Shown here piece after piece: positions 24,644 through 33,806 of a DNA stretch of 33,843 nucleotides (positions are counted from its first letter, which is position 1; every line of letters begins with the position of its first letter). Made by a program: the position numbers and the translations under genes. The notes beneath the pieces were generated by a model. It was not told the DNA's origin, ran no database searches, and was given only the letters and a program-made list of their open reading frames with translations. The stretch spans positions 1 through 33,843 of the forward strand of contig CASEBP010000018.1 in assembly GCA_949285275.1 (NCBI GenBank), read 5' to 3'. The DNA is from an uncultured Oscillospiraceae bacterium (GTDB taxonomy: Bacteria > Bacillota > Clostridia > Oscillospirales > Ruminococcaceae).

Positions 24644-25372
24644 TCAGTAGCCCAGCTCCTGCGAAATCCGCAGGGCAAATTCCTTGGTCTTAAGGGCCAT
24701 CTCGATCATCAGATCGGGATCGATCCGGGCGGCAGGGCCTGAGACATTGAGCGCCGCAACCACCTTACGCCCGGAATCGAAGATCGGCGCAGCGACCGAG
24801 ACCACCCCTTCTTCCCGCTCGCTGCGGCTGGTGGAATAACCGAGCGAACGGATCTCTGCCAGCCGGTCGACCGTGGTATAGGGGTCGACCTCCAGCAGCT
24901 CCTCGATGACGTTGGGGGGCTGGTAGGCCAGCAGCAGCCGTCCCGAAGCGCCCCGGGTCAATGGCAGCCGGTCTCCGATGTTCAGGATCCGCTTGAGCGG
25001 GTGGGTACTCTCAATCCGCTCGATGCAGACCCGGTGCCCCTTGTTGGGAACGTAGAGTCCAACGCTCTCATTGTAAATCTCTCGCAGCTGCACCATGTAC
25101 GGAACCGCGATCCGCCGGAAATCCATATGGGAATAGCAGAGGGTGCCCAGCCGGGCAATGCTCGGTCCCAGATAGTACCGCTGGGTTTCCTCGTCGCGGT
25201 AGAGATAATTGTATTTTTCGAGGGTCGCCAAAATCCGGGATGTCGTACTCGGCGGCAGATCGATCTCCCGGGCGATTTCCACGAGAGAAAGGCTCAGCTT
25301 CTCCTTGGTAAAGCAGTTGAGCATCCGGAGCGCGCGCTCGATTACCTTAACACTGGCATCCGCGCTGGCCAT
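24644..25372 (-). CDS. IclR-family transcriptional regulator
   Basis: 242 residues, the usual length. An N-terminal winged helix (about 1-70: RALRMLNCF, LSLVEIAREIDLPPSTTSRILATLEKY) binds DNA; the C-terminal domain (about 85-242: YNESVGLYV, LTRGASGRLLLAY, GVVSVAAPIFDS, AALNVSGPAAR) binds a small effector, in this family often an aromatic or organic acid. The start follows GGGAGG. It is divergent from the thioesterase gene, and a 15-bp palindrome overlaps the thioesterase -35 box, a plausible binding site. The catabolic operon from 27385 is another possible target. Effector unknown. Confidence 0.93.
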   Translation of the reverse strand: MASADASVKVIERALRMLNCFTKEKLSLSLVEIAREIDLPPSTTSRILATLEKYNYLYRDEETQRYYLGPSIARLGTLCYSHMDFRRIAVPYMVQLREIYNESVGLYVPNKGHRVCIERIESTHPLKRILNIGDRLPLTRGASGRLLLAYQPPNVIEELLEVDPYTTVDRLAEIRSLGYSTSRSEREEGVVSVAAPIFDSGRKVVAALNVSGPAARIDPDLMIEMALKTKEFALRISQELGY

Positions 25373-26058: not shown

Positions 26059-26077
26059 CCTGCCCACTGTGCAGCAA

Positions 26078-26118
26078 CGCCGCGAAAACCGGTAACCGGT
26101 TTTCGCGGCGTCTTTCTT
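26078..26118. terminator. Terminator between convergent thioesterase and LysR genes
   Basis: A 33-bp near-perfect palindrome (26078-26110) with stem CGCCGCGAAAACCGG is followed on the plus strand by TCTTTCTT. The minus strand side has only a weak T run. Confidence 0.85.
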
Positions 26119-26127
26119 ATGCGGCTG

Positions 26128-27036
26128 TCACAGCAGGTATTTTGGATCGACAATCTGTCCGCGCTTCTCCAAGCAGAACCGGATAAACCGCTCCAACTGC
26201 GGAGAAATATTGGTATCCTTCCGGTAGAGAAATCCGAACTCCCGCTCATAGTTGAACCCCTCGAGCTTGACCATCGCCAGCTGTCCCTGCCGGATATTTT
26301 CCTGCGTCAGGATCAGCGAGAGAAGGCTGATCGTCTGGTTACGCAGGACCAGATCCTTGATGGCCGCCTGGCCGTTTGAGGTAAACACCTGCTCGAGGAC
26401 AACCCCGTTCTTCCGGATGACCTGCTCGAAAGCCTCCCGGATGTTCGAGCTGCGCGGAGGAACGGTGATCTTCTGGTCGACCAGCTCAGAAAGCTGGACA
26501 CAGGATCGGTTGGCAAAGGGGTGACTGACATGGCAGCACAGCGAGACCGGGTCACGAAAAAGCGGAATGGAGGTCAACAGCGGGTTCTCATTGGCGGGAA
26601 GCGGCATAGCGGCCAGATCCAGCTCATAGGAGAGCAGCTGTTGCTGCAGCTTGTCATGGTGATTGATCGTCAGGTCGATCTCGATTTCGCTGCCCGCCTC
26701 CTTCTGAAACTCAAGAATACAGGGGCTGATGAAGGTGGAGGCAATCGAGAAGGAGGAACCCAGACGAAAGCTACGTCCCTGGCCTGCTCCCAGCGAGCTC
26801 TCCATCTCCCGATAAAGGCTCAGGATCTGCCGGGCATAACTGCAAAGCCGCAGCCCCGACGGCGTCAGGGTCAGCGGCTGTTTGCTTCGGTCAAACAGCA
26901 GAATGCCATACTGCTTTTCCATGCCGGTGATGATCTGTGAAACCGAGGAGGGGGAGATATAGAACTTCCGTCCAGTTTCGCTCATATTGCCGGTTTCCGC
27001 CACATCCAGAAGAATTTCCAGCTTATGTTCGGTCAT
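26128..27036 (-). CDS. LysR-family transcriptional regulator
   Basis: 302 residues. The N-terminal winged helix (about 1-60: LEILLDVAETGNMSETGRKFYISPSSVSQIITGMEKQYG read as helix-turn-helix) and the two-lobed effector domain (about 90-300) are complete. A linker helix (LCSYARQILSLYREME) joins them. The start at 27036 has GGGAGGGAAGGG but at a long gap, so translation may be weak. It is divergent from the catabolic operon that begins at 27385, the classical arrangement for a LysR activator and its target, so it most likely controls that operon in response to its substrate. This is inference from position. Confidence 0.93.
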   Translation of the reverse strand: MTEHKLEILLDVAETGNMSETGRKFYISPSSVSQIITGMEKQYGILLFDRSKQPLTLTPSGLRLCSYARQILSLYREMESSLGAGQGRSFRLGSSFSIASTFISPCILEFQKEAGSEIEIDLTINHHDKLQQQLLSYELDLAAMPLPANENPLLTSIPLFRDPVSLCCHVSHPFANRSCVQLSELVDQKITVPPRSSNIREAFEQVIRKNGVVLEQVFTSNGQAAIKDLVLRNQTISLLSLILTQENIRQGQLAMVKLEGFNYEREFGFLYRKDTNISPQLERFIRFCLEKRGQIVDPKYLL

Positions 27037-27384
27037 CGGAGAAACACCCTTCCCTCCCCAAATTGTAATACCAATTATATTAAAGCATCTGTAGGCAGAA
27101 ATGTAAAGCGTTCGGGGACTATGACACCATAATTCACATATTCATCCCATTATTTTAGCTATTTCGATGCCTGATTTGATGATTTACCCTAAAACAGATG
27201 ATTCCTCTGTGGCAAACAGGACAGCTTTCACATATTAGATTTTACTTAAAGTTACCGGCTTTTCCCCCGCTTTCCCCGCGTTGACAAGGAAACGGCAAAC
27301 CTGTACAGTGAAAATCAAAGGAATATTTGACGTCTTTTGGCCCGCTTCCATCCGGGCCAAATCCATAAAAAGAGGGGGAAGAGC
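27037..27384. promoter_or_regulatory. Divergent regulatory region between LysR and the catabolic operon
   Basis: This 348-bp gene-free stretch is visibly more AT-rich than its surroundings. On the minus strand, TTTACA-17-TTTAAT (27107-27079) is a LysR promoter, with AATTG-6-CAATT (27061-27076) near the start site. On the plus strand, TTGACA-17-TACAGT (27281-27309) is the operon promoter. A 10-bp direct repeat TTCACATATT occurs at 27133-27142 and 27227-27236, 94 bp apart, which is about nine helical turns. These are candidate sites for the LysR protein or another activator. Confidence 0.65.
27281..27309 (+). promoter_or_regulatory. Promoter of the catabolic/TTT operon
   Basis: TTGACA (27281-27286), a 17-bp spacer and TACAGT (27304-27309), giving a leader of about 70 nt before the first gene at 27385. 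No terminator is visible before 33685, so this promoter may serve all seven genes. Confidence 0.8.
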
Positions 27385-28113
27385 ATGGCTGAAAAAATGA
27401 TGGTTGTTGCGGCGCACATGGGAGATTTTGTCTGGCGCTGCGGCGGTTCAATCGCCAAATATGCCCAGGAAGGCAACGAAGTCCTGGTACTTGTTCTGTC
27501 AAGCGGCATCCGCGGCGAAGCAAACGACTACTGGAAGCAGCCCGGCGCCAACCGGGAAGACGGTATTGCACAGCGCCTCGCAGAGGGGCGCAAGGCAGCC
27601 CAGATTCTGGGGGCAAGCGATTTTCGGTTCTGGGACCTGCCCGATTATCCGATGCCGTCCGGCGTGGAAATCGTCGAAAAGCTGGCGCATCAGATTCGGG
27701 AGTTCCGGCCGGATTTTGTGGTTACCCACGATCTGCACGACACCTACAATCCCGACCACGACACCGTGCGGCAGCTGGTCCGTCAGGCCTACGCCACCGC
27801 CTTTGGCGCCGGATTTCAGGATGGGCTTCCGGTGGCACCGCGGAGAATGACCCTCTTCGGGTTTGAGCCGCACAATACCGAACTGTGCGGCTTCTGTCCC
27901 GGACTGTATGTGGACATCACCGAGCATATCGAAACCAAGCAGGCTGCCATGCGGGTCTTCAGCAGCCAGCCCGCCATGTTTGCCGCCTACATGCGTAAGG
28001 CGGAAATTCGGGGCTCCGAAGCCGCAGCCCGCTGCGGGCGCACCGGCTGCCAGTACGCGGAGGCCTTTTCGCTGGGCGGCCCGATCGGATTCACCGGCCG
28101 GTTCGTCTGGTAA
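27385..28113 (+). CDS. PIG-L/LmbE-fold protein resembling 4-oxalomesaconate hydratase (GalB), copy 1
   Basis: 242 residues from the ATG at 27385, with GAGGGGGA upstream. The metal site of PIG-L deacetylases is AHPDDE; here it reads AHMGDF (H11, D14). The metal-binding His and second Asp remain but the first Asp, the deacetylase general base, is Gly. The following VWRCGGSIAKY resembles the GalB hydratase group as I recall it. A distal metal histidine lies in NPDHD. GalB hydrates 4-oxalomesaconate to 4-carboxy-4-hydroxy-2-oxoadipate. With an aldolase of the matching type two genes downstream, a hydratase on a polycarboxylate is more likely than deacetylation. Copy 2 follows 43 bp later. Confidence 0.78.
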   Translation: MAEKMMVVAAHMGDFVWRCGGSIAKYAQEGNEVLVLVLSSGIRGEANDYWKQPGANREDGIAQRLAEGRKAAQILGASDFRFWDLPDYPMPSGVEIVEKLAHQIREFRPDFVVTHDLHDTYNPDHDTVRQLVRQAYATAFGAGFQDGLPVAPRRMTLFGFEPHNTELCGFCPGLYVDITEHIETKQAAMRVFSSQPAMFAAYMRKAEIRGSEAAARCGRTGCQYAEAFSLGGPIGFTGRFVW

Positions 28114-28156
28114 CCCAAGCAAGAACAATCTTTTGAAAAAGAGAGGAGTCAACAAC

Positions 28157-28879
28157 ATGCAACAGGAACGAGTTTTGGTTGTCAGCGCCCATGCCCTGGA
28201 CTTTTTGTGGCGCTGCGGAGGAACCATTGCCAAATACACCCGGGAGGGAAGCACGGTCCGGATTATCAACCTGACCAACGGCGCACGGGGCGAATCGAAT
28301 GAACTGTGGAAAAAGAACCCGGGGATCACCGCTGAGCAGATCACGGCGGAGCGCAAGCGCGAGGCACAGCAGTCATCCCAGATGATCGGCGCAGAGATCC
28401 AGTTTATGGATTGGCAGGACCATATGCTCGAGCCCAATCTGGATCGTACCTTACAGCTGGCTCGTGAGATGATGCAGTTCAATCCCACCATCATCCTGAC
28501 CCACTTCACCTCCGACCCCATGAACCCCGATCACCCGACAACGGCGCAGATGGTCATCGAGGCGTTCCGCTGCGCGCAGACCTCCGGCGTTTTCCCCGGA
28601 GAAACGCCCTGCGGCCCCGCCAAAATCTTTATGTTCGAACCCGCCTACCCTGAGGTGGTCGGCTATGTCCCGGACGTCTACATCGATATCACCGATACGA
28701 TGGAGCTGAAGATGAAGGCGATGGAGGCGGGCGGTGCACAGAAGGTCCTCGCGCAGGCCTATGATAAGCGCAACGGATACCGCGGGCATCTGGCCAGCAA
28801 ACTGTCGGGCAACAAGAGCATCAAATATGCGGAAACCTTCCAGCGATTCAAGCCCTATGTCGGGGACCGGTTCTGCTGA
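28157..28879 (+). CDS. PIG-L/LmbE-fold protein resembling 4-oxalomesaconate hydratase (GalB), copy 2
   Basis: 240 residues, start set by GAGAGGAG 8 bp upstream. The metal motif is AHALDF (H12, D15), again keeping His and the second Asp while the deacetylase base Asp is Leu; LWRCGGTIAKY follows, and NPDHP holds the distal His. It is a clear but diverged paralogue of the gene before it: shared blocks include RCGG.IAKY, RGE.N, NPDH, FEP and DITD/E, while other regions differ strongly. The two may form a heteromer or act on successive or stereoisomeric intermediates. The next gene starts 27 bp later. GalB-like function is inferred from motif and context. Confidence 0.78.
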   Translation: MQQERVLVVSAHALDFLWRCGGTIAKYTREGSTVRIINLTNGARGESNELWKKNPGITAEQITAERKREAQQSSQMIGAEIQFMDWQDHMLEPNLDRTLQLAREMMQFNPTIILTHFTSDPMNPDHPTTAQMVIEAFRCAQTSGVFPGETPCGPAKIFMFEPAYPEVVGYVPDVYIDITDTMELKMKAMEAGGAQKVLAQAYDKRNGYRGHLASKLSGNKSIKYAETFQRFKPYVGDRFC

Positions 28880-28906
28880 GATGCCGGGCAAAGGAGGTTC
28901 GTTGTT

Positions 28907-29572
28907 ATGTCACGGAACATCGGATGCCGCATCATTCAAACCATCGAGCGCCCTTCTCCGGAGTTGATCGAAGCCTTTCGGGGCATCCCGTCGAGCAATA
29001 TTGGCGACCAGATGGGCCGGTTTTATTGCACCAATTCCTCGATCCGATCCTTCAACGCCTCTCCGCTGCTGGGCCCGGCCTATACCGTCAAGGTCCCGCA
29101 GGGGGATAACCTGATGGTCCATATCGCGCTGGAGCTCGCACAGCCGGGCGATATTCTGGTAATTGACGGAGAGGGGGATCTCTCCCACGCCCTGCTGGGG
29201 GAAATCATGGTTACCTATGCCCGGCAGCGGAAGCTGGGCGGAATGGTGGTCAACGGCTGTATCCGCGACACCGAGGCCATCTCCCAGCTCACCGACTTCC
29301 CCGTCTACGCGATGGGAGCAACCCCTCAGGGTCCATACAAAAACGGGCCGGGCGAAATCAACGTCCCTGTCTGCTGCGGCGGCCTTGCCGTTTTGCCGGG
29401 GGACCTCCTGGTGGGAGATGCCGACGGGGTGGTGGTGATCCGCAGAGAGGATGCCGCTTCACTCGTAGAGGTCGCACACAAAAAGTTTGATTCGGAGACA
29501 CAGATGCTGCAGACAGGGCGCATCAACCGCGGCTGGGTTCAGGAAGCCCTCAAGGGCATTCCCCTTATGTAG
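28907..29572 (+). CDS. RraA/HMG-CHA aldolase-family protein
   Basis: 221 residues, start set by AGGAGG 9 bp upstream. The fold is shared by RraA, a regulator of RNase E, and by the class II aldolases that split 4-hydroxy-4-methyl-2-oxoglutarate or 4-carboxy-4-hydroxy-2-oxoadipate (CHA) to pyruvate plus a second oxoacid. Visible blocks are SSNIGDQMGR, the GPAYTVKVPQGDNL strand, GDILVIDGEGD, GGMVVNGCIRDTEAI, whose Arg-Asp pair serves the substrate and metal site in the aldolases, and GDADGVVVIRRED. The neighbouring hydratase-like genes produce CHA in the GalB pathway, so aldolase is the favoured reading; no RNase E context is present. Confidence 0.85.
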   Translation: MSRNIGCRIIQTIERPSPELIEAFRGIPSSNIGDQMGRFYCTNSSIRSFNASPLLGPAYTVKVPQGDNLMVHIALELAQPGDILVIDGEGDLSHALLGEIMVTYARQRKLGGMVVNGCIRDTEAISQLTDFPVYAMGATPQGPYKNGPGEINVPVCCGGLAVLPGDLLVGDADGVVVIRREDAASLVEVAHKKFDSETQMLQTGRINRGWVQEALKGIPLM

Positions 29573-29619
29573 AAACAGAAAACCGGCGCATTCCAACGAA
29601 ACAAAGGAGGGTTGCTCGC

Positions 29620-30099
29620 ATGGATTCACGCGAAAAATGGTTCCGGCAAGGAAACTACATCACCGGCGGACTGTTTGTCGCCCTGGGGCTGTTTATGTCG
29701 ATCTACGCACTCACCCAATACAGCTATATGGACCGCTATTCCCTGGGTCCCGCATTCTATCCGGCCTGGATCGGAGGTTTCATCGTCCTTCTCGGCCTCC
29801 TGATCATCTACCAGAACCATAAAAACCGTTATCTGGAGCAGAAGAAAAAGGTTCCCACCCGGGAAGCCGCCAACAGGATGGCGCTGTTTGTCATAATGTG
29901 TATTCTGTTCCTGGTAGTGGTCAATTTCCTGGGGATGGTCATCTCCCTGATTCTTTTCCTGCTGGCGGTCAACCGGATGATTGCCCAGAATACATGGAAA
30001 CGTTCCATCCCTATGGCTGTTCTCACAACCCTTAGCATTTATCTGGTATTCCACGTTATCTTCTACATCAACTTCCCCGAAGGGTTCCTCGGGTTTTAA
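29620..30099 (+). CDS. tctB: Tripartite tricarboxylate transporter small membrane subunit
   Basis: 159 residues with four helices (about 15-35, 45-65, 85-122 as a pair, and 130-152), the usual TctB build. AAAGGAGG precedes the ATG. TctB partners the large subunit TctA and receives substrate from TctC; the system is an Na+- or H+-driven secondary transporter for citrate and many other carboxylates. The motif YSLGPAFYPAWIGG after helix 1 is typical (PxFfP type loop). It is followed 19 bp later by tctA. The substrate cannot be told from this subunit. Confidence 0.9.
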   Translation: MDSREKWFRQGNYITGGLFVALGLFMSIYALTQYSYMDRYSLGPAFYPAWIGGFIVLLGLLIIYQNHKNRYLEQKKKVPTREAANRMALFVIMCILFLVVVNFLGMVISLILFLLAVNRMIAQNTWKRSIPMAVLTTLSIYLVFHVIFYINFPEGFLGF

Positions 30100-30118
30100 T
30101 GAAAGGAGGGGGTTCTGA

Positions 30119-31621
30119 TTGGATATTCTGGAAAACCTGCTCGCAGGCTTTCAAACGATTTTCTGCCTTGACACGATGATCTATCTGTTTGTCGGCACCT
30201 TTCTGGGTACAATTATCGGCGCGCTCCCCGGAATGGGGGCGAGCACCGGTACCTCCATTCTGCTGCCGCTGACCTTCTCGATGTCCCCGCTCAACGCCCT
30301 GGTTATGCTGATGGGGGTCTATTACGGCACCCAGTACGGCGGGTCGCTGACGGCGATTCTCATCAATATTCCGGGCACCTCCTCTTCCGCCATCACTGCG
30401 GTGGACGGCTATGCGCTGATGAAACGGGGCAAAGGTGCCATCGCACTGGGCGCGGCGCAATTCTCCTCCTTCATTGGCGGTATGATCAGCACCGTTCTGC
30501 TGACGGTCTGCGGCGTCTCGCTGGCGCGGGTGGCGCTCAAGTTCAGCGCCCCGGAGTATTTTGCACTGACCCTCATGGGCCTGACCCTCGTATCAGGCCT
30601 GACCGGAAACTATCCTGCCAAGGGCTACATGATGATGCTGTTCGGCATGGCGCTCGGCTGCGTCGGCATCGACACCGTCTCCGGCATCGAGCGGTTTGCC
30701 TTTGACAGCCTCTATCTGGTAGACGGATTTAAGACTGTCCCCATCCTGGTCGGACTGCTGGGATTCAGCGAACTGCTCGGCACCATCGAAAAAGGACCGA
30801 AGAACCAGGATAATCAGGGGCTGACTACCAAGGTTCGGGTCGCTGATATGATTCCGAGCCGGCGCGACTGGAAGGAAATCCTCCCCTCGTCGCTGCGCGG
30901 TACCGTCATCGGCTTTGTGGTCGGAGCACTTCCCGGCGCAGGCGCCACCATCTCTTCGGTACTGGCCTACGGCTACCAGAAGAAGCGTACCCACAATCCC
31001 GACTTCGGAAACGGAGCGGTGGACGGGGTGTCGGCGGCCGAATCCTCCAACAACGCTTCGACCGGCGGCGCAATGGTTCCCATGCTGGCGCTGGGCATCC
31101 CCGGATCCCCCACCACAGCGATTCTGATGACTGCGCTGGTCATGTTCGGCATGAAGACCGGGCCGCAGCTCTTTACCACCAATGGGACGACCATCTGGGC
31201 GGTCATCGCAAGCATGTACATCGGCAATGTATTCCTGCTGGTCATCAACATCCTGATGGTCCCCCTGCTCATCTTCATTCTGCATCTCGCACAGGACATC
31301 CTCACCCCGCTGGTCGCAGCACTGTGCATTGTCGGCGTATATTCCCTTTACGGACGGATTTTTGATGTGGGCATCATGCTGCTCTTCGCCGTCATCGGTT
31401 ACTTCTTCAAAAAGTTCAACTTCCCGATCCTCCCGTTGATCCTCGGCGTAATTCTGGGACCGACGGCAGAATCCTCCTTCCGGCAGGCTATGGTCATGTC
31501 CGGCGGAAGCGTCGGGATCTTCCTGACCCGCCCCATCTCCTGCATCATGCTGCTGGTTTGTGTTGTCAGCTTCTTCTACACCCCCATCAAGGAGAGACTC
31601 CGTTCCAAAAGCGGGCAATAA
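30119..31621 (+). CDS. tctA: Tripartite tricarboxylate transporter large membrane subunit
   Basis: 500 residues, the standard TctA length, with about 11-12 helices. Signature blocks are GALPGMGASTGTSILLPLTF, YYGTQYGGSLTAILINIPG, then GALPGAGATISS, and SNNASTGGAMVPMLALGIPGS, which form the two conserved halves of the transport core. The start is a TTG at 30119 after GGAGG with a 9-bp gap; the first downstream ATG is far inside helix 1 and would truncate it. It is the translocating subunit of the operon's transporter, placed in order B-A-C. Confidence 0.95.
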   Translation: MDILENLLAGFQTIFCLDTMIYLFVGTFLGTIIGALPGMGASTGTSILLPLTFSMSPLNALVMLMGVYYGTQYGGSLTAILINIPGTSSSAITAVDGYALMKRGKGAIALGAAQFSSFIGGMISTVLLTVCGVSLARVALKFSAPEYFALTLMGLTLVSGLTGNYPAKGYMMMLFGMALGCVGIDTVSGIERFAFDSLYLVDGFKTVPILVGLLGFSELLGTIEKGPKNQDNQGLTTKVRVADMIPSRRDWKEILPSSLRGTVIGFVVGALPGAGATISSVLAYGYQKKRTHNPDFGNGAVDGVSAAESSNNASTGGAMVPMLALGIPGSPTTAILMTALVMFGMKTGPQLFTTNGTTIWAVIASMYIGNVFLLVINILMVPLLIFILHLAQDILTPLVAALCIVGVYSLYGRIFDVGIMLLFAVIGYFFKKFNFPILPLILGVILGPTAESSFRQAMVMSGGSVGIFLTRPISCIMLLVCVVSFFYTPIKERLRSKSGQ

Positions 31622-31648
31622 CCCTTTGTGTACAGAAAGGAGATCACT

Positions 31649-32674
31649 ATGAAAAAGTCATTGGCTCTGCTCCTGGCGTTATGTCTCGTCGTTGCGGCAA
31701 CCGCCTGCAGCAACTCGTCAAGCAGCTCCGCTCCCGCCTCCCAGGCATCCGAAGCGGCGCCGGCCTCTTCCACCGAGGCGCAGGGATCCTACACCCCCCA
31801 GAAAAACATCACCATCTTCGCCCCCTACAGCGCAGGCGGCGGTGTCGATATCTGGGGCCGCAACTTCAGCGCCATGCTGGTCAGCACCGGTATTGTCGAC
31901 AACAACTGGGTCTATGAAAATGTCAACGGCGGAACCGGTCAGGTTGGTCTGGGAACCGTTGTCTCGCAGTACCAGGGCAAGGACAGCGTTCTGATTCCGA
32001 CAGCGACCAACTACCTGATGACCCCCTATATCCAGGGCAAGGAGTACAGCTATAAGGATCTGACGATGGTAGCACAGCTGGTTGTGGACTACCGGGTGTT
32101 CGTCACCTCGGCTCAGTCGGGCTACACCTCGATGGAAGATCTGATTACCGCCTCGAAGGACCATGAGCTGGTAGCTGCTATTTCCGGTGTGGGCGGCATT
32201 GGACATATCGCGATTGAACAGTTCAAATCGCTCTCCGGCGCCTCGATCCGCAGCGTCCCGTTTGACGGCAACGAGGATACCATCGCCCTGCTCGGCAACC
32301 AGGTGGAGCTGGGCAATCTGGCACTGAGCGAAGCACTGCCTCACATCCAGTCCGGCGATCTCATCGCGCTGGCCGTAACCTCCGAAGAGCGCCTGCCCGC
32401 CATTCCCGACATCCCCACCTGCACCGAGCTGGGATATGACATCACCTTCAAGACCGGCCGCGGTGTCGCCATGCCGGGCGGCGTCAGCGACGAGGCGCGT
32501 GATTACTGGATCGATAAGCTCCAGCAGCTGGTCGAAACCGATGAATTCAAGGCCTATGCCGACAACTCCTCCAACACCATCGCCTTCCTGGCGGGAGAGG
32601 ATTATGTCGCCGACCTGGATCGCGACTATGAAGCAATGAAGGTCATCATGACCGACCTGGGACTGGCCGGCTGA
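31649..32674 (+). CDS. tctC: Tripartite tricarboxylate transporter substrate-binding lipoprotein
   Basis: 341 residues from the ATG at 31649, with AAAGGAG upstream. Residues 1-19 are a lipoprotein signal with lipobox ATAC and lipidated C20, then a Ser/Ala/Pro-rich linker to about 45. The rest is the Bug/TctC fold with NITIFAPYSAGGGVDIWGR, which replaces the common PAGGGTD ligand loop, and YENVNGGTGQVGLG, SVPFDGNEDTIALLGNQVELG and EERLPAIPDIPTCTELGYD. It captures substrate outside the cell membrane for TctAB; the Asp in the ligand loop suggests binding of a carboxylate with water-mediated contacts, as in known Bug proteins. It is the only extracellular component. Confidence 0.95.
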   Translation: MKKSLALLLALCLVVAATACSNSSSSSAPASQASEAAPASSTEAQGSYTPQKNITIFAPYSAGGGVDIWGRNFSAMLVSTGIVDNNWVYENVNGGTGQVGLGTVVSQYQGKDSVLIPTATNYLMTPYIQGKEYSYKDLTMVAQLVVDYRVFVTSAQSGYTSMEDLITASKDHELVAAISGVGGIGHIAIEQFKSLSGASIRSVPFDGNEDTIALLGNQVELGNLALSEALPHIQSGDLIALAVTSEERLPAIPDIPTCTELGYDITFKTGRGVAMPGGVSDEARDYWIDKLQQLVETDEFKAYADNSSNTIAFLAGEDYVADLDRDYEAMKVIMTDLGLAG

Positions 32675-32726
32675 GCCAGCCTGCCGGGCAGCGATCGAAT
32701 TTGAAGAAACGGGGAACATCTTACTT

Positions 32727-33626
32727 ATGGAAAACCTGATCGGATTAATTGGATTCGGAGAAGCAGCCTCCAGCATGGCCCGGGACTTCCATGCCGCCGG
32801 GGTTCAGGGGCTGTGGGCCTATGACATTCTGTCCAACAGCGAAACGCACGGCGCTTCAATCCGTGCGCGGGCAAAGCAATACGGCGTGACACTGGCCCGC
32901 AGCATCGAGGAACTCTGCGCGCAAACCACCTACCTTCTCGCCTTTACCAGTCCCGCCAGCGCCGTACCGGTCGCACAGTCGGCCATTCCGCTGCTTCGGG
33001 CCGGACAGACCTATGTGGATCTCAACTCCACTTCACCCGACATGGCAGTTCAGATGGGGAAGATCCCCTGTGCGGATGGGGTCGGCGTCTGTGACGGCGC
33101 CGCCCTCGGGAACGTACAGAAGCTGGGGAATAAGGTTCCCGTTGTCGTCTGCGGCACGGGGGCGGAGGCCTTCCGGCGGGATCTGACCCCTTACGGGATG
33201 GACATCGAGGTGCTGGATGCGCCGCTGGGCGCGGCCTCCGCCATGAAAATGCTCAAGACCGTCTACTCCAAAGGCCTGCAGCAGCTGGTTTTGGAATACC
33301 TGCTAGCCGCCCAGAGCTATGGCATCCTGGAACAGATGGTCAACGGCGTCCACAACCCGATGGAAGGCAAAACCCTGGCGGAATACGCTGATGAAGCGAT
33401 GCCGCGTCTCTTCCTGCACGCACAGCGCCGGGCCACCGAGGTCGCCAACGCAGTGGAAACGGTAGAGCAAGGTGGGCTGGAACCCGTGATGACCCGCGCC
33501 GCACAGACAGGGTTTGAACGGGTTGCGGCGCTGCATCTGACGGAACAGTTTCCGGATATCGGCCAGATGAATTACCAGCAAATTGCACAGGCAGTGCTGC
33601 CTTATATGAAGAAGAAAAGCAAGTAA
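32727..33626 (+). CDS. 3-hydroxyisobutyrate dehydrogenase-like NAD(P)-dependent oxidoreductase (DUF1932-type C-terminus)
   Basis: 299 residues. The N-terminal Rossmann domain has GLIGFGEAASSMA (6-18) for the dinucleotide, AYDI after the second strand, and VDLNSTSPD matching the substrate loop of beta-hydroxyacid dehydrogenases. The proposed catalytic Lys lies in AASAMKMLKTVYSKG. The C-terminal helical part resembles the DUF1932 phosphogluconate-dehydrogenase-like domain. Such enzymes oxidise 2- or 3-hydroxy acids. As the last gene of the operon, 52 bp after tctC, it probably oxidises the imported acid or an intermediate before hydration and cleavage. The ribosome site (GGGGA) is weaker than others. 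Terminator hairpins follow. Confidence 0.83.
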   Translation: MENLIGLIGFGEAASSMARDFHAAGVQGLWAYDILSNSETHGASIRARAKQYGVTLARSIEELCAQTTYLLAFTSPASAVPVAQSAIPLLRAGQTYVDLNSTSPDMAVQMGKIPCADGVGVCDGAALGNVQKLGNKVPVVVCGTGAEAFRRDLTPYGMDIEVLDAPLGAASAMKMLKTVYSKGLQQLVLEYLLAAQSYGILEQMVNGVHNPMEGKTLAEYADEAMPRLFLHAQRRATEVANAVETVEQGGLEPVMTRAAQTGFERVAALHLTEQFPDIGQMNYQQIAQAVLPYMKKKSK

Positions 33627-33684
33627 ACGATCCGACTGCCTACTCGCACAAAATGCGGTAAAACGAGCCTTTCCCATATGCGAA

Positions 33685-33713
33685 GCCCCCGTATGGAAGA
33701 ACCATACGGGGGC
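33685..33713 (+). terminator. Hairpin after the catabolic operon
   Basis: GCCCCCGTATGG (33685-33696) pairs perfectly with CCATACGGGGGC (33702-33713) around a 5-nt loop. Only a weak T content follows (CTTGCTG), so it may act with the stronger terminator at 33768. Confidence 0.65.
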
Positions 33714-33767
33714 CTTGCTGTAGTTCAAAAGCCAGAGGCAATCTTCCCATTTCCTTACTCCCCCGCG

Positions 33768-33806
33768 AAAAAAAGCACCCCGTCGCCATGACGGGGTGCT
33801 TTTTCA
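33768..33806. terminator. Strong intrinsic terminator at the right end
   Basis: AAAAAGCACCCCGTC (33770-33784) and GACGGGGTGCTTTTT (33790-33804) form a perfect stem with a 5-nt loop and T or A runs on both sides, so it works in both directions. No gene can be called in the last 37 bases; a minus-strand gene ending just beyond the window is possible. Confidence 0.9.

Follow-up and report, generated by a model that had tools for sequence, protein, structure and literature searches.

What use would an anaerobe have for enzymes that are known from the aerobic breakdown of aromatic compounds? The question is raised by seven genes on contig CASEBP010000018.1 of an uncultured Oscillospiraceae bacterium, a stretch of 33,843 nucleotides here called the window. 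It makes up the entire contig C18 of a 2.01 Mb genome in 175 contigs (completeness 92%, contamination 0.9%), and the group to which it belongs is presumably anaerobic. The genes encode two PIG-L proteins (PIGL1 and PIGL2), an RraA-like aldolase, the TctB, TctA and TctC subunits of a tripartite tricarboxylate transporter (TTT) and a DUF1932 dehydrogenase. All lie on the plus strand, as an earlier sequence-only reading had placed them, and all seven products score above the cut-offs of their Pfam families (Table 1). The reading favoured here is that they form an inducible operon for the uptake of a polycarboxylate and its oxygen-independent "hydrate and split" conversion to pyruvate and a second oxo acid, a proposal whose chances appear evenly balanced.

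The argument hinges on the two PIG-L proteins. Their Pfam family is named for deacetylases, and the NCBIfam BshB models match, though far under their cut-offs (68.8 of 182.5 for PIGL1). On one rival account, both are genuine N-deacetylases or deacylases whose substrate is an imported conjugate, and the aldolase and the dehydrogenase are incidental. By sequence, however, both are closest to GalB rather than to the deacetylases, with PDB entry 5cgz leading the next match (7.5e-09 for PIGL1, 2.2e-09 for PIGL2) by about 30 orders of magnitude. The matches that follow GalB are other PIG-L proteins, mostly deacetylases, at 2e-9 or weaker. An AlphaFold2 model of PIGL2 (pLDDT 93.9, 27 sequences in the alignment) points the same way: it fits 5cgz with a TM-score of 0.95 and a root-mean-square deviation of 1.3, and the next matches are deacetylases at a TM-score of about 0.77. 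The structural comparison proposed earlier thus groups PIGL2 with GalB and not with the N-deacetylases; it covers PIGL2, and PIGL1 is placed by sequence and residues.

A comparison of positions with GalB shows that the metal ligands (His, Asp, His) and the RGE-motif Glu are retained in both proteins, while the general-base Asp of the deacetylases is replaced by Gly in PIGL1 and by Leu in PIGL2. Replacement of this Asp with retention of the metal ligands is what we take, from structural work on GalB, to be the rule for GalB-type hydratases. The GalB Glu and His occupy chain positions 44 and 160 in 5cgz and presumably correspond to the catalytic Glu-48 and His-164, the two numberings being offset by 4. 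PIGL1 has the His of the FEPH motif and so keeps the residues assumed to be catalytic in GalB of Pseudomonas putida KT2440; it is likely a hydratase. In PIGL2, the motif reads FEPA, and the same position is Asp in PIG-Ls of Moorella, Oscillibacter and three Chloroflexi. Because the FEPH His is missing, a plain GalB role is unlikely for PIGL2, which appears GalB-like in its modelled fold. The sequence-only reading had named two GalB-like hydratases: the GalB kinship stands for both, and the residues fit PIGL1 but not PIGL2. The two are evidently not recent copies of each other, since they are only 37% identical.

The surroundings of PIG-L genes in other genomes bear on the same rival. Eight aligned PIG-Ls served as the query for a scan of named genomes, which yielded 69 loci; together with the window and six further loci, and with one fragment locus dropped, these gave 75 neighbourhoods that were scored within 8 kb (Yanshouia hominis is counted twice). 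An RraA gene is found near the PIG-L in 63 of the 75, and PIG-L, RraA, DUF1932, TctA and TctC occur together in five: the window, its congener G002, a Clostridia metagenome-assembled genome (MAG; L048), Paenibacillus radicis (L062) and Moorella mulderi (L064). The phylum sample adds two more loci with DUF6282, PIG-L, RraA and DUF1932, in which a TRAP importer replaces the TTT. The control consisted of 17 of 20 weak PIG-L matches from the same searches, all in the window's class and initially labelled deacetylase-type for their low identity. None of the 17 has RraA, DUF1932, DUF6282, PrpF, TTT or TRAP within 8 kb; the deacetylase Asp is present in 15 and replaced by Gly in the other two (L163 and L166), and none has the Glu or the His of GalB. 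Gfo/Idh/MocA (LigC-like) matches are seen in 7 of the 17. The gene set is therefore not a chance association, as the families recur together in other genomes and never in the control, and the co-conservation that the sequence-only reading had asked to see is found across Bacillota. Deacetylase identity was rejected on sequence, residues, the fold of PIGL2 and this control taken together, and the account of deacetylases with an incidental aldolase and dehydrogenase is extremely improbable.

The third enzyme gene encodes an RraA-like protein of the class II pyruvate aldolases that act on 4-hydroxy-4-methyl-2-oxoglutarate (HMG) and 4-carboxy-4-hydroxy-2-oxoadipate (CHA), the family to which it had been assigned from sequence. 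Both its PF03737 match and its active site bear this out. Compared with the HMG/CHA aldolase LigK/GalC (PDB 3noj), 8 of 10 checked active-site positions are identical (R40, N71, H75, G101, R123, D124, G144 and K147); D102 is replaced by Glu and T145 by Pro, and both substitutions also occur in other aligned neighbours. In contrast to LigK/GalC, the protein scores below the LigK-specific NCBIfam cut-offs, and among the NCBIfam models listed, it exceeds the cut-off only for NF004850, an unnamed subfamily. Excerpts of PMC5065237 describe the roles of Arg123, Asp124 and other aldolase residues and state that this class cleaves both HMG and CHA. From its residues, the protein looks like a competent pyruvate aldolase.

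All three TTT subunits are present by Pfam, so that the tripartite importer is full, as claimed earlier, and compares with the TctABC transporters; a carboxylate ligand is predicted from its family. TctC resembles solved TctC/Bug proteins, chains of the terephthalate-binding protein included, and retains the sequence PYSAGGG, presumably part of the carboxylate-binding motif of such proteins. The last enzyme belongs to DUF1932 (PF09130, 43 bits against a cut-off of 25; PF03446 falls just under its cut-off, at 20.2 of 21) and resembles 4ezb and 3qsg, two structures of unknown function. It has an IGFGEAA motif at residue 8 and, within MKMLK, Lys174, which we assume to be catalytic.

In a tree of 77 PIG-L rows (support given as paired values), PIGL1 belongs to an eight-row clade (100/98) with the tandem PIG-Ls of Yanshouia hominis, a Spirochaetales MAG (Spiro_12) and Solobacterium. 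PIGL2 groups with Moorella mulderi (86/86), and its link to Oscillibacter (95/58) is looser. A separate group of 42 (98/96) holds known GalB, the rows from Pseudomonadota, Bacteroidota and Actinomycetota, and five of the eight from Chloroflexota. Several of the window and tandem rows are long branches whose exact placement is unsure. Yanshouia hominis is of the same genus as the window organism and was isolated from human faeces, according to an excerpt of PMC8140505. The tandem clusters share PIGL1 sister proteins with the window and have a carboxylate importer and/or RraA nearby; they differ in having three PIG-Ls, some of which lack the metal ligands or the His, and in two of the three, a D-2-hydroxyacid dehydrogenase takes the place of DUF1932. 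In Yanshouia hominis and in Solobacterium, one tandem PIG-L has lost metal ligands (His to Arg or Thr), and judged by sequence, these copies look as if they were kept as non-catalytic partners.

The resemblance to gallate degradation is partial. Like the GalB-GalC-GalD system of P. putida KT2440, the window has a likely hydratase of the PIG-L family, an aldolase of the RraA fold and a LysR regulator; unlike it, the window operon lacks a dioxygenase and GalD, adds the TTT importer, the DUF1932 enzyme and a second, His-less PIG-L, and its PIG-Ls fall in separate clades. In the GalB clade (41 loci), 28 loci have a dioxygenase of the glyoxalase-fold or LigB type nearby, 27 a PrpF gene and 3 a TTT or TRAP importer; among 18 loci of a Bacillota clade (99/97), the respective counts are 4, 0 and 12. 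No dioxygenase is seen in the PIGL1 clade (0/4 loci), where two loci have an importer and three have RraA, and in a set of five grouped by the FEPD motif and not by clade, the counts are 0/5, 1/5 and 4/5. All such neighbour counts are lower bounds, as some contigs are short and the scoring covered two dioxygenase families (LigB and glyoxalase-fold) in an 8 kb range, beyond which the dioxygenase operon of Pseudomonas may lie.

Could the window operon then be the lower half of an ordinary aerobic pathway, with its dioxygenase encoded at another place or in sequence missing from the assembly? Within 8 kb of the operon, there is neither a LigB or glyoxalase-fold dioxygenase nor a PrpF (GalD-family) gene, and searches of the whole genome, which is 92% complete, turned up no dioxygenase that would cleave aromatic rings among the LigB and glyoxalase-fold types that they covered (intradiol and further types lay outside them). 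The incompleteness and the restriction to two types leave some room for a hidden gene, and the genome does contain one LigB-domain protein and, on contig C124, a PrpF gene beside an IclR gene and near an MmgE/PrpD gene. However, the LigB domain is fused to AMMECR1 and its gene adjoins a radical-SAM gene, on which grounds it was rejected as an aromatic dioxygenase; we take such fusions to be AmmeMemoRadiSam-type proteins. A glyoxalase-fold dioxygenase query from Brevibacillus found no match in 9 of 9 genomes, a set without a positive control, and a COX1 search was likewise negative in 9 of 9, while 8 of 14 control genomes were positive. With the searches confined to these two types, a concealed aerobic pathway is judged very unlikely. 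The sequence-only reading had stated that no dioxygenase or GalD-like isomerase gene is present; this is so beside the operon and, for the dioxygenase, in both genome searches, but one PrpF gene does exist elsewhere. The IclR product beside this PrpF gene is 50% identical to an IclR regulator encoded in the window, a likeness that hints at a linked acid pathway.

As for the chemistry of the favoured hydrate-and-split reading, we infer the activities, the order of the steps and the substrate from the observed families and retained residues. TctC would capture the acid outside the cell and TctA and TctB would import it. With NAD(P), the DUF1932 enzyme would then oxidise a hydroxyl group on the acid, which would yield a 2-oxo acid (or its enol) in which a double bond is conjugated. 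PIGL1 would add metal-bound water to the double bond in the manner of GalB to give a 4-hydroxy-2-oxo acid, which RraA would split into pyruvate and a second oxo acid. The second product would be oxaloacetate if the intermediate is CHA and a second pyruvate if it is HMG. PIGL2 most likely handles a second, different intermediate.

Several observations weigh against this proposal. The aldolase falls short of both LigK/CHA equivalog cut-offs (TIGR02798, 121.5 of 304.5; NF006731, 136.2 of 179), so that CHA as the substrate is not implied. The earlier suggestion of a new route to pyruvate and oxaloacetate is supported in part, by the GalB kinship of the PIG-Ls, the aldolase, the importer and the co-conservation, but its oxaloacetate depends on CHA. 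The FEPH His is absent not only from PIGL2 but also from some rows of PIGL1's own clade (it is kept by 5 of 8), and two further tandem PIG-L copies are without metal ligands. A glyoxalase-fold dioxygenase stands beside near relatives of the Bacillota clade, all four of them Paenibacillaceae, and the Bacillota module is therefore not always oxygen-free. DUF1932 occurs in 15 of the 41 GalB-clade loci as well and is for this reason no marker of an anaerobic route. The importers at L056, L059 and the Chloroflexi locus L090 are ATP-binding cassette (ABC) systems and not carboxylate carriers. Two PIG-Ls with RraA, TTT and DUF1932 are found in no row of the 75 except the window. Finally, GalB-like PIG-Ls are rare: a threshold of 1e-20 finds them in 8 of the 396 family-sample genomes and one of 1e-35 in 4 of the 398 in the phylum sample, the window genome counted in both, and a PIGL2 search of the order sample at 1e-30 returned 1 of 394, the window's own genome.

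The same gene set might also serve to scavenge. Gallate and protocatechuate opened by oxygen-using neighbours would supply ring-cleavage products (2-pyrone-4,6-dicarboxylate (PDC), 4-oxalomesaconate or its enol), and the operon would be a gallate lower pathway that starts at the importer. In favour of this, the GalB-like protein and the CHA-aldolase-like protein occur together with an importer of the carboxylate kind, and no dioxygenase lies nearby. A Pseudomonas mutant described in PMC12314914 accumulates PDC and does not consume it, and since it is left unused, it can persist as food for others. DUF6282 is found in related modules; its model (pLDDT 93.7) shows the fold of the amidohydrolase superfamily, and several His and Asp residues are conserved. 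The PDC hydrolase LigI is, we believe, a member of that superfamily. In addition, of 73 loci, 16 have DUF6282 near the PIG-L and 28 have PrpF, but none has both (p 1.2e-4, uncorrected for kinship), as if one replaced the other. However, the best structural match of the DUF6282 model is 2i5g (TM-scores 0.65/0.60), and neither LigI nor LigJ is among the best 50 of 1648 matches, so a LigI-type lactonase is a guess from the model. The window operon itself has no DUF6282, lactonase or PrpF beside it, the aldolase is under the CHA-specific cut-offs, and the dehydrogenase would be left without a role. Scavenging of ring-cleavage products is unlikely, all told. A 4-oxalomesaconate hydratase is also named in PMC9241852, which concerns Sodalis ligni from an anaerobic lignin consortium.

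The loss of the FEPH His suggests a different kind of substrate. With Asp or Ala at this position in Moorella, Oscillibacter, three Chloroflexi and PIGL2, the side chain of the acid may differ, and acids of the methylene-glutarate type would fit an aldolase class that takes HMG as well as CHA (PMC5065237, in excerpt). Three Chloroflexi loci (L086, L090 and L109) have a FEPD-type PIG-L with RraA. The one of them that was run against Pfam, L090, adds an aminotransferase, two genes of the DHDPS family and an ABC importer whose solute-binding protein is of family 3, such as a methyleneglutamate route would need, and the Chloroflexi clusters are possibly an amino-acid-derived variant of the same chemistry. 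Against methylene-glutarate as the substrate of the window operon, no such compound is tied to these organisms, the GalB His is kept in PIGL1 and the operon has no aminotransferase. This substrate appears distinctly unlikely.

The hydrate-and-split reading also extends beyond the window, where the parts appear to be interchangeable. Clusters with DUF6282, PIG-L and RraA in Bacillota (Geosporobacter, Fusibacter, Lutispora, Moorella and Paenibacillus) carry TAXI/TRAP or TTT importers, a GntR gene and often DUF1932. Their core enzymes are the same as in the window, and four loci besides the window have TTT, PIG-L, RraA and DUF1932; the window operon differs in lacking GntR and DUF6282 and in having LysR and two PIG-Ls. 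DUF6282 was accordingly dropped as an obligate partner, being absent from the window operon and from the tandem PIG-L loci. On contig C138 of the window genome, DUF6282, RraA, a 2-hydroxyacid dehydrogenase, TctB, TctA and TctC follow one another in a row, which is the plan of the window operon with two parts swapped, and on contig C29, an RraA gene is found with DUF6282 and DctM-type TRAP genes. The importers vary, and many are of carboxylate types: TTT, TAXI/TRAP and, behind the three PIG-Ls of Solobacterium, a CitMHS/DcuC-type carrier.

Together, these clusters may represent an undescribed class of oxygen-independent operons in anaerobes, assembled from an importer (TTT, TAXI-TRAP, TRAP, CitMHS or sometimes ABC), an NAD dehydrogenase (of the DUF1932 or D-2-hydroxyacid type), at least one metal hydratase or hydrolase (GalB-type PIG-L and/or DUF6282 with its amidohydrolase fold) and an RraA aldolase for the final, pyruvate-forming step. 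This generalisation is tentative, with somewhat less than an even chance. An operon of GalB, RraA and TTT in anaerobes is not named in any title among the matches listed from the open-licence literature; the literature of this kind that was searched has no mention of DUF6282 and mentions DUF1932 only in work on allergens and autoantigens. If the class is real, the gallate lower pathway of aerobes would be one branch of a wider scheme, which would also place DUF6282, DUF1932 and the His-less PIG-Ls in a biochemical context. The setting in which GalB and the RraA-type aldolase are known is the aerobic degradation of aromatic compounds; here, they are a conserved, control-tested pair that occurs with importers in anaerobes, and the window operon suggests that hydrate-and-split chemistry also serves bacteria without oxygen-dependent ring cleavage. 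This offers an assayable context for unnamed families (DUF1932, DUF6282, NF004850 aldolases and His-less PIG-Ls) and a small set of acids to test, and it would correct "PIG-L deacetylase" and "RraA" annotations in gut and soil anaerobes.

Table 1. Coordinates of the window operon, its putative signals and other features discussed (positions in the window unless a locus is named)
Feature	Position	Strand	Evidence
PIGL1 (PIG-L, GalB-like)	27385-28113	+	PF02585 1.6e-29; best PDB match 5cgz GalB 3.4e-38
PIGL2 (PIG-L, predicted GalB fold, FEPA)	28157-28879	+	best PDB match 5cgz GalB 1.3e-39; AlphaFold2 model
RraA-like class II pyruvate aldolase, HMG/CHA type	28907-29572	+	PF03737 6.4e-47; NF004850; 3noj 4.5e-30
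TctB, small membrane subunit of TTT importer	29620-30099	+	PF07331 8.9e-21
TctA, large membrane subunit of TTT importer, TTG start	30119-31621	+	PF01970 4.8e-147
TctC, substrate-binding subunit	31649-32674	+	PF03401 2.6e-23; PDB 4x9t 9.3e-28
DUF1932 NAD(P)-binding dehydrogenase, 6-phosphogluconate/beta-hydroxyacid dehydrogenase kind	32727-33626	+	PF09130 4.4e-11; PDB 4ezb 3.2e-36, 3qsg 3.3e-33
LysR-type regulator, divergent from operon	26128-27036	-	PF03466 7.5e-38; PF00126 2e-13
Sigma-70-like promoter candidate TTGACA-17-TACAGT	27281-27309	+	consensus match 10/12
Two hairpins 3' of last gene, terminator candidates	33680-33804	+	fold -30.5 and -21.6 kcal/mol
IclR regulator	24644-25372	-	
IclR beside PrpF (contig C124)	L133 4925-5704		
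16-pair hairpin	26077-26111		
Glyoxalase-fold dioxygenase-like gene	L054 8066-9025		
Glyoxalase-fold dioxygenase-like gene	L052 8771-9751		
Glyoxalase-fold dioxygenase-like gene	L076 4552-5511		
Glyoxalase-fold dioxygenase-like gene	L068 11345-12298		
PIG-L without metal ligands, Yanshouia hominis	L043 10636-11454		
PIG-L without metal ligands, Solobacterium	L058 369-1001		
Truncated PIG-L with TctA and RraA, Oscillospiraceae MAG	L111 9968-12908		
Two-part fumarase-type hydratase, G760	L136 7317-8695		

The layout of the seven genes fits a single transcription unit, with gaps of 43, 27, 47, 19, 27 and 52 bases from 5' to 3' and a clear GGAG-type site upstream of five of the seven start codons. 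The sigma-70-like site sits 75 bases 5' of the PIGL1 start, and it is only plausible as a promoter, since a scan of the region found 4 such sites against 3.1 expected, which is chance level overall. From its position, the divergent LysR gene is likely the regulator of the operon. Downstream, the first hairpin lies within 33670-33720 and the second at 33775-33799, followed by five T; neither is among the sites listed by a consensus terminator scan. The operon lies close to the end of the contig, but with this pair of hairpins behind its last gene it seems to terminate within the contig and to be complete. No signal of horizontal transfer was found by base composition, as the GC content of the operon genes, overall and at third codon positions (GC3), equals that of six other window genes tested. 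A further hairpin between the convergent thioesterase and LysR genes is likely a two-way terminator.

A few side observations concern single parts of these clusters. The glyoxalase-fold dioxygenase-like proteins, of about 320 residues, form a family that differs from the LigB type and accompanies GalB/RraA pairs in Paenibacillaceae, Bacteroidota and Chloroflexota. RraA proteins are often annotated as RNase regulators; the 2 Mb window genome has eight RraA-like genes, which is many for such a protein, at least four of them with a TTT or TRAP importer nearby (contigs C18, C138, C29 and C37). In the genome of a relative (G760), the two-part fumarase-type hydratase lies between DUF1932 and DUF6282-PIG-L in the same orientation. 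In another Oscillospiraceae MAG, the start of a PIGL2-type PIG-L (60% identity over 58 residues) ends after 70 codons and directly precedes TctA and an RraA 51% identical to that of the window; this short PIG-L is either a broken gene or an assembly fault.

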